Below, in pieces: positions 2,483 to 38,322 of a stretch of 45,915 nucleotides of DNA (its first letter is position 1; each line of letters starts with the position of its first letter). The stretch is taken from positions 1 through 45,915 of the IMG/VR virus record IMGVR_UViG_3300017697_000024, one strand, 5' to 3'. Under the pieces are notes generated by a model. The model ran no database searches, was not told the origin of the DNA, and saw only the letters and a program-made list of their open reading frames with translations. Both the position numbers and the translations under genes were made by a program. The stretch comes from a virus.

Positions 2483-2604
2483 GAAGAACTGCAATACCAA
2501 AACAAATAGATGGAAAGCTTAGAGGAGCGAGAGATGAAAAAAAGAAGAAAAGACGTGTCATCTCCAAATTATATCGCAAAAAGCCTAAGGTCTTCAAAGT
2601 TTAG
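2473..2604 (+). CDS. Possible small basic protein overlapping the ArfA-like gene
   Basis: An ATG inside the end of the preceding gene (ATGCCAATAG) opens a 43-codon frame. The product starts MPIGRTAIPKQIDGKLRG and ends in a Lys/Arg-rich tail (EKKKKRRVISKLYRKKPK). The beginning looks like short basic proteins of marine phages, but there is no SD, and most of the frame overlaps the better-supported ArfA-like gene in another frame. Either frame, or both, could be used. Confidence 0.35.
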   Translation: MPIGRTAIPKQIDGKLRGARDEKKKKRRVISKLYRKKPKVFKV

Positions 2605-2695
2605 TCAAAAAGTGCTACAATCTAAGAAGTTGTACAACCGCAAAAAGGAGAAGTCATACACTCTCAAAGCGGCCGCTAATAAGGAGAACAAATAA
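2534..2695 (+). CDS. ArfA-like ribosome rescue factor (probable)
   Basis: A 53-residue basic protein. The start at 2534 is chosen because GAGGAG lies 7-9 bases upstream; an in-frame ATG at 2510 has no SD. Residues 14-38 (IAKSLRSSKFSQKVLQSKKLYNRKK) fit the ArfA core, in which a 'LLxxPLFRQRVExxKKGKGSYxRK' pattern is typical: a short helix, F-x-Q-x-V, then KK-x-Y-x-RK. ArfA frees ribosomes stalled on mRNAs lacking a stop codon by recruiting release factor 2. The match is by eye to a short basic protein, so a nucleic-acid-binding protein of another kind remains possible. TAATG overlap with the next gene. Confidence 0.5.
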   Translation: MKKRRKDVSSPNYIAKSLRSSKFSQKVLQSKKLYNRKKEKSYTLKAAANKENK

Positions 2696-9278: not shown

Positions 9279-9829
9279 AACGTGTAACAAGACCATTTAA
9301 GTATAGAGTAATAAAAGGTTTTTTAGATAAAACAGAAATTAAATTATTAACTGATTATACTAGAATTAAACACAGACTTAATAGAGAAACATTTGATCTT
9401 GAACAAAGTAATAATTATGCAACCATTTTTTATAAAGACCCTTTAACAGAAACAATTATGTTACAAAAAAAAGAAATGATGGAAATAGAAACTGGTTATA
9501 AATTATTTCCAACTTATTCTTTTTTTAGAATGTATACTTTTGGATCTGATCTAAAACCTCATACTGATAGATCTTCTTGTGAAGTGAGTGTAACTGTATC
9601 TATTGGTTCTGATGGAACTCCTTGGCCTATCTATATGGATGGTAAAGAAGTGATGTTAGAACATGGAGATGCAGCAATTTATTTTGGTTGCGAAATACCT
9701 CACTGGAGAAAACCATTTAAAGGTGATTGGTATGCACAAACTTTTTTACATTATGTAAATAAAGATGGGCCACACAAAGAGTGGTTAAAAGATAAAAAAC
9801 TGTTATGGGGCCAAACCGAGGAGGATTAA
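9272..9829 (+). CDS. 2OG/Fe(II) dioxygenase-like protein
   Basis: A 185-residue protein. LKPHTDRSSCEVSVTVSI provides H97 and D99 of the iron site, GDAAIYFGCEIPHWR provides H144, and a basic residue (R146 or K150) is in the place of the 2OG-binding Arg. A conserved-looking WPIYMDG segment (118-124) separates the halves. It differs clearly from the other family members here, so it is not a recent duplicate. ATG 9272 lies within the end of the previous gene; an upstream GTG (9266) is possible. It ends with a GGAGGA sequence that serves as SD for the next gene. Confidence 0.65.
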   Translation: MVERVTRPFKYRVIKGFLDKTEIKLLTDYTRIKHRLNRETFDLEQSNNYATIFYKDPLTETIMLQKKEMMEIETGYKLFPTYSFFRMYTFGSDLKPHTDRSSCEVSVTVSIGSDGTPWPIYMDGKEVMLEHGDAAIYFGCEIPHWRKPFKGDWYAQTFLHYVNKDGPHKEWLKDKKLLWGQTEED

Positions 9830-10048
9830 ATGCAAATACAACAAAATGAAGACGGCAGTGCAGATATACTTTTTGAAGATAGTGAAATTACTATTTTAAC
9901 ACAAAAAAAGAAATTACATTTAGATGCAGAAGGTTTGCGGCATTTTGGTAATATTTTGGTAAAGATTGTATCTGATTGGAATCTTAACTTTAACGAAGAT
10001 TTAAAAAATAAAGCAACACATGATACTACACGTGTTAAGTTTAAATGA
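9830..10048 (+). CDS. Conserved small phage protein, 72 aa
   Basis: A 72-residue protein (MQIQQNEDGSADILFEDSEI...HLDAEGLRHFGNILVKIVSDW...) with a strong GAGGAGG SD 6-8 bases before the ATG. A beta hairpin followed by a helix is likely. I recall closely similar proteins from many marine phages with no known role. It sits inside the dioxygenase run, starting right after one and overlapping the next by four bases (ATGA). Confidence 0.6.
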   Translation: MQIQQNEDGSADILFEDSEITILTQKKKLHLDAEGLRHFGNILVKIVSDWNLNFNEDLKNKATHDTTRVKFK

Positions 10049-35724: not shown

Positions 35725-36240
35725 CTATTCGTTCATTTTAATTGAAGTATTAAAAGAGATAATAATTTTAGGATCATCAAACAAATTTACTGGAGACTTG
35801 TGCCACCAATAAGAGGGTATAGTTAAGATCTGTCCTTCCATTACATCAAAAGATTTTAGCTGCTCAATATGTTTAATAGTTGTTTTAACTTCTTTGTTTG
35901 GCATAGATAAATAATAAATATTTGTAAAGTGAACACCTCCATGAATATGCCATACATGAAAATCATTTTTTTCATACCATTGGAACCAGGCGTTGTGTAA
36001 ACCAATTTTACTTTTAATCTTATCTTCAAAGTCTAATTTAAATTCATGATAAATATTTTTAAAAAAATATTCTCTCCACTCAATAATCATACTCGCAGGT
36101 AAATTATAATCAGTGTGTGAAATTTGATCTATTTTATTTTGTGGTATCAATCTCATTTTATCAATGAGAATTGGTTTATGTACTATGTGTTTAGGTACAT
36201 TATAAATCCAGCTATCTTTTATTAAGGACTCTTCCTGCAT
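35725..36240 (-). CDS. Putative 2OG/Fe(II) oxygenase, HxH subgroup (minus strand)
   Basis: A 171-residue protein. NDFHVWHIHGGVHFTNIYYLS gives H98 and H100, EGQILTIPSYWWHKSPV gives H147, and DDPKIIISFNTSI has K158 in the usual Arg place. It belongs to the HxH group like the genes at 10562, 14567 and 33142. It is the distal gene of a minus-strand island, ending three bases from the stop of the DNA polymerase gene, so the two converge without room for a standard terminator (GAATA/TATTC 5-bp stem at about 35717-35731 only). Weak SD. Confidence 0.65.
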   Translation of the reverse strand: MQEESLIKDSWIYNVPKHIVHKPILIDKMRLIPQNKIDQISHTDYNLPASMIIEWREYFFKNIYHEFKLDFEDKIKSKIGLHNAWFQWYEKNDFHVWHIHGGVHFTNIYYLSMPNKEVKTTIKHIEQLKSFDVMEGQILTIPSYWWHKSPVNLFDDPKIIISFNTSIKMNE

Positions 36241-36388
36241 TACTTCGATGTCTATTTTTCCAATTTAATTTTAACTTTAAAACTTTATCTTCTGGCCCAT
36301 GACAAATAGTTATTAAATGACCCTTCTTGGTATCAGTAATCCAATATTTTTTGTAATCATTTATGATTAAGGTTTTATTAGAGGACAT
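36212..36388 (-). CDS. Small basic protein, 58 aa (minus strand)
   Basis: A minus-strand frame of 58 codons. The product starts MSSNKTLIINDYKKYWITDT and continues KKGHLITICHGPEDKVLKLKLNWKNRHRSNAGRVLNKR. It fills a 195-base gap and overlaps the start of the dioxygenase gene by 29 bases. AGGGA lies about 5 bases before the ATG. No family recognised. Amphipathic beta-strands in the middle and a basic C-terminus are visible. Confidence 0.45.
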   Translation of the reverse strand: MSSNKTLIINDYKKYWITDTKKGHLITICHGPEDKVLKLKLNWKNRHRSNAGRVLNKR

Positions 36389-36435
36389 AAGTTCCCTACA
36401 CTTTATATCGAAAAAAGTAAATGTGCTAGTTTTAT

Positions 36436-36624
36436 TTAACTAGCTATATCGTAAAGACCACTTTTAGCGTCTTCAACACTTTGATCATTAATCTTAGTTT
36501 TAAGACCTTTGATCTTTATATCGATCCACTTCATATCAGGTGTTACCCGACCCTGCTGCAATGCCTGTGATGCCCACTTGGATTCCAGCTGAAGTTTTTC
36601 CGATATTAACTTTTGTAGTTGCAT
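36436..36624 (-). CDS. Small helical protein, 62 aa (minus strand)
   Basis: Start at 36624 is chosen because AGGAGG (36634-36639 on the + strand as CCTCCT) lies 9 bases upstream; an in-frame ATG at 36642 would use part of that SD. The product MQLQKLISEKLQLESKWASQ...KWIDIKIKGLKTKINDQSVEDAKSGLYDIAS is helical and polar. It overlaps the end of the upstream minus-strand gene by about 90 bases in another frame. Function unknown. Confidence 0.5.
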   Translation of the reverse strand: MQLQKLISEKLQLESKWASQALQQGRVTPDMKWIDIKIKGLKTKINDQSVEDAKSGLYDIAS

Positions 36625-37434: not shown

Positions 37435-37522
37435 GTTTGTACTTTTGTGTGCAATATTAGTAATACCACCTAAGATTTTTATAATGTTAGTTGGGGCATT
37501 GCTCTATACAATCATATACTAA
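37412..37522 (+). CDS. 36-residue membrane peptide
   Basis: ATGATG at 37412 opens MMINQFFKFVLLCAILVIPPKIFIMLVGALLYTIIY: two short hydrophobic stretches separated by PPK, so either a re-entrant hairpin or a single span. AAAGGGGA precedes it by 10 bases as a possible SD, and it fills the 100-base gap before the ParB-like gene. Function unknown. Confidence 0.45.
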   Translation: MMINQFFKFVLLCAILVIPPKIFIMLVGALLYTIIY

Positions 37523-37533
37523 AAAAGGAGAAA

Positions 37534-38322
37534 ATGATGACTAAAGAAGTAAAAGGTAAATATTTTGTAACAAAAGATTATGGAATATTTAAAAAATCAA
37601 AAGGTAATAGAGAAGTTGATTCTACACATGTAGATAGAATCAAAAGATTAATCGCTGAGAGAGATCTTAAAACTCCTATTATTGTAAATAAAAAAATGGA
37701 GATCGTAGATGGTCAACATACAGCCCAGGCTAGAAAACAATTAGGCTTGGATATTTACTATGTAATTGGTGATTCTGATGATGCTTTAGATACAGCTAGG
37801 GCTAACACTGGAAAAAAGAATTGGAACTTAAACAATTTTTTAAACTTCCACTGTACAAGAGGCAAACAAGATTATAAGATCTGTGCTTCTAAAATGACAC
37901 AATACGGAATGCCAGTAGCTGAAACACTAGCCCTACTTAATGGTAGAGCAACAGTTTGTAGATTACAAACTGAAGAGTTTAAATTGGGAGACTTCTCAAT
38001 TGCTGCAGGTAGACTAAGCAGGTTTGATCAAATTGCAAAAGAAATAACTTACATTGCAAAACAAATCGATCCGAATGGTAAAAAACTAAAACGACAATTG
38101 ATTAGAGCATATTTAATTATGTGCAAACATCCAAAGTTTTCATTTGATAGATTAAAGTCTGCAATGAAATCTAAGGGTGGTAAATTAGCTGCAGTAACTA
38201 ACAGCTCTGATTACATTGAACAATTCGATAGAGTGTACAATGGTGGATTGACTAGAGATAAAAAAGTTGATTTTCTTAAGTTTGCATTAGATCGAGACTT
38301 TGACAAGAGAGAGGCAGCGTAA
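37534..38322 (+). CDS. ParB-like nuclease-domain protein
   Basis: A 262-residue protein. The N-terminal domain (about 27-90) has the ParB/sulfiredoxin fold pattern: VDSTHVDRIKRLIAERDLKTPIIVNKKMEIVDGQHTAQARKQLGLDIYYVIGD. The usual DGQHR box reads DGQHT (59-63), so the Arg is lost. The rest (about 95-262) is helical and basic and could bind DNA. Phage ParB-like proteins act in transcription control, partition or as nucleases; which applies is unknown. AAAAAGGAG SD 4 bases before the ATG. Confidence 0.7.
   Translation: MMTKEVKGKYFVTKDYGIFKKSKGNREVDSTHVDRIKRLIAERDLKTPIIVNKKMEIVDGQHTAQARKQLGLDIYYVIGDSDDALDTARANTGKKNWNLNNFLNFHCTRGKQDYKICASKMTQYGMPVAETLALLNGRATVCRLQTEEFKLGDFSIAAGRLSRFDQIAKEITYIAKQIDPNGKKLKRQLIRAYLIMCKHPKFSFDRLKSAMKSKGGKLAAVTNSSDYIEQFDRVYNGGLTRDKKVDFLKFALDRDFDKREAA

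Follow-up and report, generated by a model that had tools for sequence, protein, structure and literature searches.

The window analysed here, the whole of the 45,915-base virus record IMGVR_UViG_3300017697_000024, encodes a 53-aa protein that is probably a shortened ArfA, which would escape tmRNA control and recruit host RF2 for ribosome rescue. The ORF is a real gene under purifying selection. Judged by profile comparisons, its product is homologous to ArfA despite failing the Pfam model of that family. The features discussed are the following:

2473–2604, + strand: conserved 43-aa ORF in another frame, lying upstream of the ArfA-like ORF and running into it (conservation, pN/pS)
2522–2527, + strand: Shine-Dalgarno-like GAGGAG, 6 bases before the ATG at 2534 (sequence)
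2534–2695, + strand: ArfA-like short-form protein, 53 aa, stop codon TAA at 2693–2695 (conservation, selection, homology)
2567–2596, + strand: N12-S21, counterpart of the E. coli ArfA helix region (15–24) at the decoding centre (alignments; roles according to PMC8012679)
2600–2617, + strand: F23-L28, counterpart of the RF2-contacting F25 and Q27-E30 of E. coli ArfA (alignment; roles according to PMC8012679)
2624–2647, + strand: K31-K38 (KKLYNRKK), counterpart of the basic mRNA entry channel segment, without the GKG triplet (alignments; role according to PMC8012679)
2695–3390, + strand: next gene, tail adaptor, overlapping the ArfA-like ORF by one base (TAATG); other phages have relatives annotated as tail adaptor or adaptor

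The translated protein (P0001; MKKRRK...NYIAKSLRSSKFSQKV..SKKLYNRKK...) is basic and contains N12...F23-S-Q25-K-V27...K31-K32-L-Y34-N-R36-K37. An in-frame ATG at 2510, unlike that at 2534, has no GAGGAG-type site. Relatives were encoded by 284 of 408 pattern-matched viral stretches, and the best 80 of these were kept for further work. In an alignment of 13 members (12 loci picked from the best 80 and P0001), N12, A15, K16, L18, R19, S20-K22, K26, V27, Q29, S30, K32, and Y34-K38 were invariant; beyond RKK, both residues and length varied among relatives. Across 25 distinct 39-codon cores, pN/pS of the ArfA-like frame was 0.242 vs. 0.32, 0.50, 0.86, 1.35, and 3.97 in the other five frames, the nearest rival (0.322) being antisense. 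In the part beyond the overlapping 43-aa ORF, it fell to 0.108 (30 distinct sequences). The 43-aa ORF (MPIGR...KVFKV) kept its ATG and stop codon at constant offset in 30 of 30 distinct sequences, with pN/pS of 0.209 in its own part and 0.357 in the overlap; Pfam, PHROG, and NCBIfam scans gave no match for it. A run of seven A nucleotides at the start of the ArfA-like ORF could also permit slippage. Late action of the gene, proposed in the initial annotation, may be suggested from gene position only.

Direct HMM scans of P0001 against Pfam and NCBIfam gave no match, and DUF7230 (PF23876) was likewise without a match in the Pfam scan. The search with PF03889, which the initial annotation had put forward as a check, retrieved neither the protein nor anything else in the record. 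The protein matched PHROG 20887, a family without assigned function, at E 4e-4. A profile of close relatives (A1) found nothing in PDB at E up to 10, and a profile of the short class (A3) found no ArfA chain there, its top matches being chance-like (E 0.39). The first profile search of genome contigs with A1 also gave no match. The AlphaFold monomer had helices at 11–19 and 22–52 and no strand plus loop (mean pLDDT 83, pTM 0.41); it was taken as no evidence either way because a peptide of this kind would be ordered on the ribosome.

Homology was revealed by comparison of profiles. In addition to A1 and A3, these were A4 (18 bacterial beta/gamma-type ArfAs), A5 (phage GKGS class), A6 (16 host GKG ArfAs), and A7 (a short profile of 11 members, nine host and two phage rows). 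Hhalign aligned A1 with A6 at 8.2e-7; with trimmed columns the value was 1.4e-6 and the score 29.3, which none of 500 composition-preserving permutations reached (maximum 22.4). A6 matched A4 at 1.7e-10 (score reached in 0 of 200 permutations), A3 matched A5 at 3.8e-10 (trimmed score 47.5, maximum 14.8 in 200 permutations), and A5 matched A4 at 2.9e-12. The margin was narrow for A3 vs. A4 (2e-4; trimmed score 20.8, maximum 18.5 in 300 permutations). Since the direct match of A1 to A4 was weak (0.038), the link of A1 to ArfA runs through the host and phage GKG forms. As the proteins are short, the statistics are modest. All 16 members of A6 matched PF03889 at E 0.01 or better, the first of them with 26.4 bits vs. 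a cut-off of 25.5. A3, built without HTVC027P gp30, found this protein at 1.7e-8 among 2475 ORFs; gp30 itself matched PF03889 at E 4e-4, under the cut-off.

Weak tblastn matches of the window protein led to named phages, from which 22 loci were taken (among the 60 of 92 and 40 of 77 matching records listed). Homologues in phages Cr30, Kikimora, and XM05 were above the PF03889 cut-off. The phage homologues without GKGS leaned to DUF7230, PhT2 (4.9e-13) and L127 (7e-7) being above its cut-off and several more below. DUF7230 resembles the window protein in its KK-x-Y-x-R-K form, and 2 of the 11 A7 members matched it with an E-value of at most 0.01. Among the phage relatives, L084 and L127 scored above the cut-off and others below, whereas the window protein itself had no match. 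The sole DUF7230 match in 299 Pseudomonadota genomes (L256) had a long acidic tail. The proposal of an ArfA-type rescue factor in the initial annotation is thus supported at the level of sequence, by the match of A1 to host ArfAs (8e-7) and by phage homologues above the PF03889 cut-off. That annotation had named lack of an HMM hit, together with lack of similarity of close homologues to ArfA, as grounds for rejection: the former holds for the protein itself, but the latter is false in view of the PF03889 phage matches and the 8e-7 alignment.

Residues N12-K32 aligned without gaps with ArfA, so that F23 and Q25-L28 fell on F25 and Q27-E30 of the E. coli protein. Shared with ArfA (PF03889; E. 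coli, beta/gamma-type) were the N-x-[IV]...L...F-x-Q-x-V...KK register, the basic C-terminal segment, and the Y-x-R end; the window protein differed in lacking the GKG that separates KK from Y as well as the KH motif, and neither a Pfam match nor a hairpin ahead of the stop codon was found. The GKG triplet, exactly three residues, was missing after the gap-free block, and comparison of the mRNA channel segment with the KGKGS loop likewise placed the window protein three residues short. The ArfA core spacing claimed earlier stands for the helix and F-x-Q-x-V register and fails for the distance from KK to Y, which is three residues shorter than in canonical KK-GKGS-Y-x-R. At the RF2 contact, F23, Q25, and V27 were in register, and E. 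coli R28 and E30 were replaced by K26 and L28. The counterpart of E. coli A18 was lysine K16, and the same lysine was invariant in the 16 host GKG ArfAs. Most of the beta-type ArfA frames L245-L255 ended with WEAS..LLAA or FLAA, ends which we take to resemble an ssrA-type tail.

In the account of E. coli ArfA given in PMC8012679, a helix of residues 15–24 lies at the decoding centre, recruitment of RF2 falls to F25 and Q27-E30, and the mRNA entry channel is occupied by the basic C-terminus. By analogy, the window protein would act where a broken mRNA has left a ribosome stalled at its 3' end: the basic tail would occupy the vacant mRNA entry channel, host RF2 would be recruited through F23 and the Q25-L28 strand, and RF2 would release the peptide, leaving the ribosome recyclable. 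BrfA of Bacillus is similar by description: it is small, recruits RF2, and has a basic tail, and its gene carries a terminator ahead of the stop codon (PMC8012679). It is described there as probably unrelated to ArfA except for the KH motif and is called homologous to ArfA in PMC11633108.

Other explanations of the gene were considered. A protein derived from ArfA could have been repurposed, plugging the mRNA channel or sequestering RF2 and thereby slowing host translation without rescue. The shortened loop and carriage by phages would fit such a role, but the protein retains the RF2-contact motif, and in 15 host-type genomes no copy other than the short form was detected, which makes a pure inhibitor unlikely; we regard this explanation as having a small chance of being right. 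Slightly less probable is recruitment of RF1 or of both release factors, with the shortened loop altering the choice between them or the tolerated mRNA length. ArfT is a factor that recruits RF1 or both release factors, and the window protein differs from canonical ArfA in loop length and at the A18 position. Against this, F23 was kept in at least 90% of the 13 aligned members, and it is the counterpart of F25, whose contact is held to account for the RF2 specificity of ArfA (PMC8012679).

The resemblance to ArfA might also be due to chance, the protein being an unrelated small basic nucleic-acid-binding or virion protein. Low complexity, the adjoining tail adaptor gene, and the lack of a direct HMM match agree with this; however, composition-preserving permutations never reached the observed scores (500, 300, and 200 trials), and bridging phage sequences lie above the PF03889 cut-off, which leaves it very improbable. 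The preferred reading remains a shortened ArfA that probably recruits host RF2.

Both E. coli arfA and B. subtilis brfA are expressed from non-stop mRNA (PMC8012679). We scanned 24 sequences for hairpins: the 22 named-phage loci, HTVC027P gp30, and E. coli arfA (the IG49 frame is cut and was effectively outside the scan). In Sinorhizobium phages phiN3, phiM12, and phiM19 (Emdodecavirus), a terminator was located inside the ArfA-like ORF, before the stop codon: a 9–10 bp GC-rich hairpin with a U run, ending 17–18 bases before the stop. This arrangement corresponds to the non-stop design of arfA. These phages are close relatives, so we count them as one case and not three. In 50 kb of phiM12, eight terminator-like sites were present on the + strand, and only the ArfA-like one was wholly inside any of the 103 + strand CDSs. 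The phiM12 record (L377) also annotates a putative aminoacyl-tRNA hydrolase, a RelA/SpoT-like protein, and a type 2 peptidyl-tRNA hydrolase (9597–10019, 35813–36565, and 37480–37950). A similar hairpin without a U run was found in Atu_ph07, hairpins ending at the stop codon in three Acinetobacter phages, and a weak hairpin in ORM_20; the rest of the 24 sequences had no convincing hairpin before the stop. The scan requires unbulged stems and may therefore miss hairpins. For E. coli arfA it gave only a hairpin after the stop, while RNAfold shows a long one before it. Among 89 distinct tails, 12 had a hairpin of -5 kcal/mol or better; none was in the close family L001-L080 or the window gene, in a scan that misses bulged stems. 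None of 59 host loci had a non-stop hairpin. The lack of a hairpin in the window gene points to tmRNA-independent expression. The window gene ends in an ordinary stop codon, before which no hairpin was found, and the next gene begins at its final base, so it should yield a normal phage protein even with host tmRNA active, unlike E. coli arfA.

The product of the next gene had 72% identity to HTVC023P gp54 (annotated as hypothetical), and its identity to a protein of HTVC027P was 54%. According to PMC9599517, HTCC1062 was the host on which these two phages were grown, and they are the two cultured members of the HTVC023P type. As its tail adaptor gene resembles those of that type's cultured members, the window virus is considered a relative, and we infer that it probably infects SAR11. 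HTVC027P gp30, from a pelagiphage of the same type (PMC9599517), shares the N-terminal half and was found by the short-class profile; it differs in having GRGS and in its location, as its gene neighbors that of the small terminase and the large terminase is encoded on the other strand. It is called ArfA and is reported to be highly expressed both early and late in infection (PMC12753301), which concerns a gene located elsewhere in the genome than the window gene. HTVC023P has an unannotated ArfA-like ORF (L270:1319–1522) wholly nested in gp46 in a different frame. In this nested family, 16 of the 18 loci read (37 in total) were inside a long same-strand frame, the exceptions being L367 and L373; pN/pS was 0.253 in the nested frame vs. 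1.185 in the gp46 frame (15 distinct sequences, L367, L373, and L346 left out).

Of 299 Pseudomonadota genomes, 27 had matches over the PF03889 cut-off, as did 6 of 289 genomes of a class taken for Alphaproteobacteria because its centre has GcrA, a marker that also matched one archaeal control genome and is not proof. One of the matching genomes, 1.2 Mb in size, directed us to the order it belongs to, with 197 genomes of 0.7–1.5 Mb with a GC content of 25–32% (18 loci measured). From the small size, GC content, and phage type, we infer that this order is Pelagibacterales (SAR11). Profile A2 matched 169 of the 197 genomes, one locus in each. A6 matched 126 genomes, 119 strongly (at least 44 bits) and 7 weakly (28 bits or less); among the weak matches, those in G570 and G615 fell on known Y-x-R-K loci, whereas those in G567, G580, and G590 fell on a third class of loci. 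A7 matched 108 genomes, 15 strongly (at least 55 bits) and the rest at 39 bits or less; nine of the 15 had themselves supplied A7 rows. The strong short (15) and strong GKG (119) forms did not overlap in any of the 197 genomes, a complementarity that may in part reflect phylogeny. The short form was the only copy detected in its 15 genomes.

We read 59 of the 169 A2 loci (20 best and 39 hand-picked): 36 were GKG, 10 Y-x-R-K short, and 13 without Y-x-R-K. The same convergent family (PfkB-like by eye) was within two genes downstream of 32 of the 36 GKG loci. Seven of the short loci had another common convergent neighbor, two had a third common family nearby, and one had none. The third class (L299-L308, L312, L317, L338; NPIARQLRT...NKKKLHEKKR) was not counted as ArfA on account of its different neighborhood: all 13 loci lay downstream of one shared pair of families (SDR- and RecX-like by eye), and 12 were upstream of a nitroreductase-like family. 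SmpB was detected in 173 of the 197 genomes, and ArfB (NF006718) was over cut-off in none. Among the ArfB matches listed below the cut-off, most lay in frames as long as release factors, usually two to a genome, and were taken for cross-hits of release-factor type; a few frames were shorter, including one of 145 aa.

Besides HTVC027P gp30, phage proteins have been named ArfA before in phage RXM (g10; PMC8953757) and in the database records of phage OC and of Brevundimonas phages. The short form without GKG and a chromosomal ArfA in SAR11 were not found in the open-access literature searched, nor was any paper on DUF7230. In a survey of 15,259 genomes, 2,022 of the 2,376 Alphaproteobacteria are listed with arfB and none with arfA (PMC11633108). 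In contrast, in one order of alphaproteobacterial type, GKG-type ArfA was present in 119 of 197 genomes and the short form in 15 more, with ArfB over cut-off in none. We tentatively suggest, at somewhat less than even chances, that an unrecognised ArfA lineage is common to SAR11-type bacteria and their phages, with the GKG-less form replacing the canonical one. In this order it would take the role of ArfB as the release factor-dependent back-up to trans-translation. The phage versions would be free of tmRNA control, one lineage overlapping a small gene and another fully nested in a larger gene, and the shortened loop may affect which release factor is chosen or how much mRNA overhang is tolerated. 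DUF7230 would gain a testable function. If the GKG and short forms act as ArfA, what look like the ocean's most abundant bacteria would have a second rescue factor, and their phages would bring their own.
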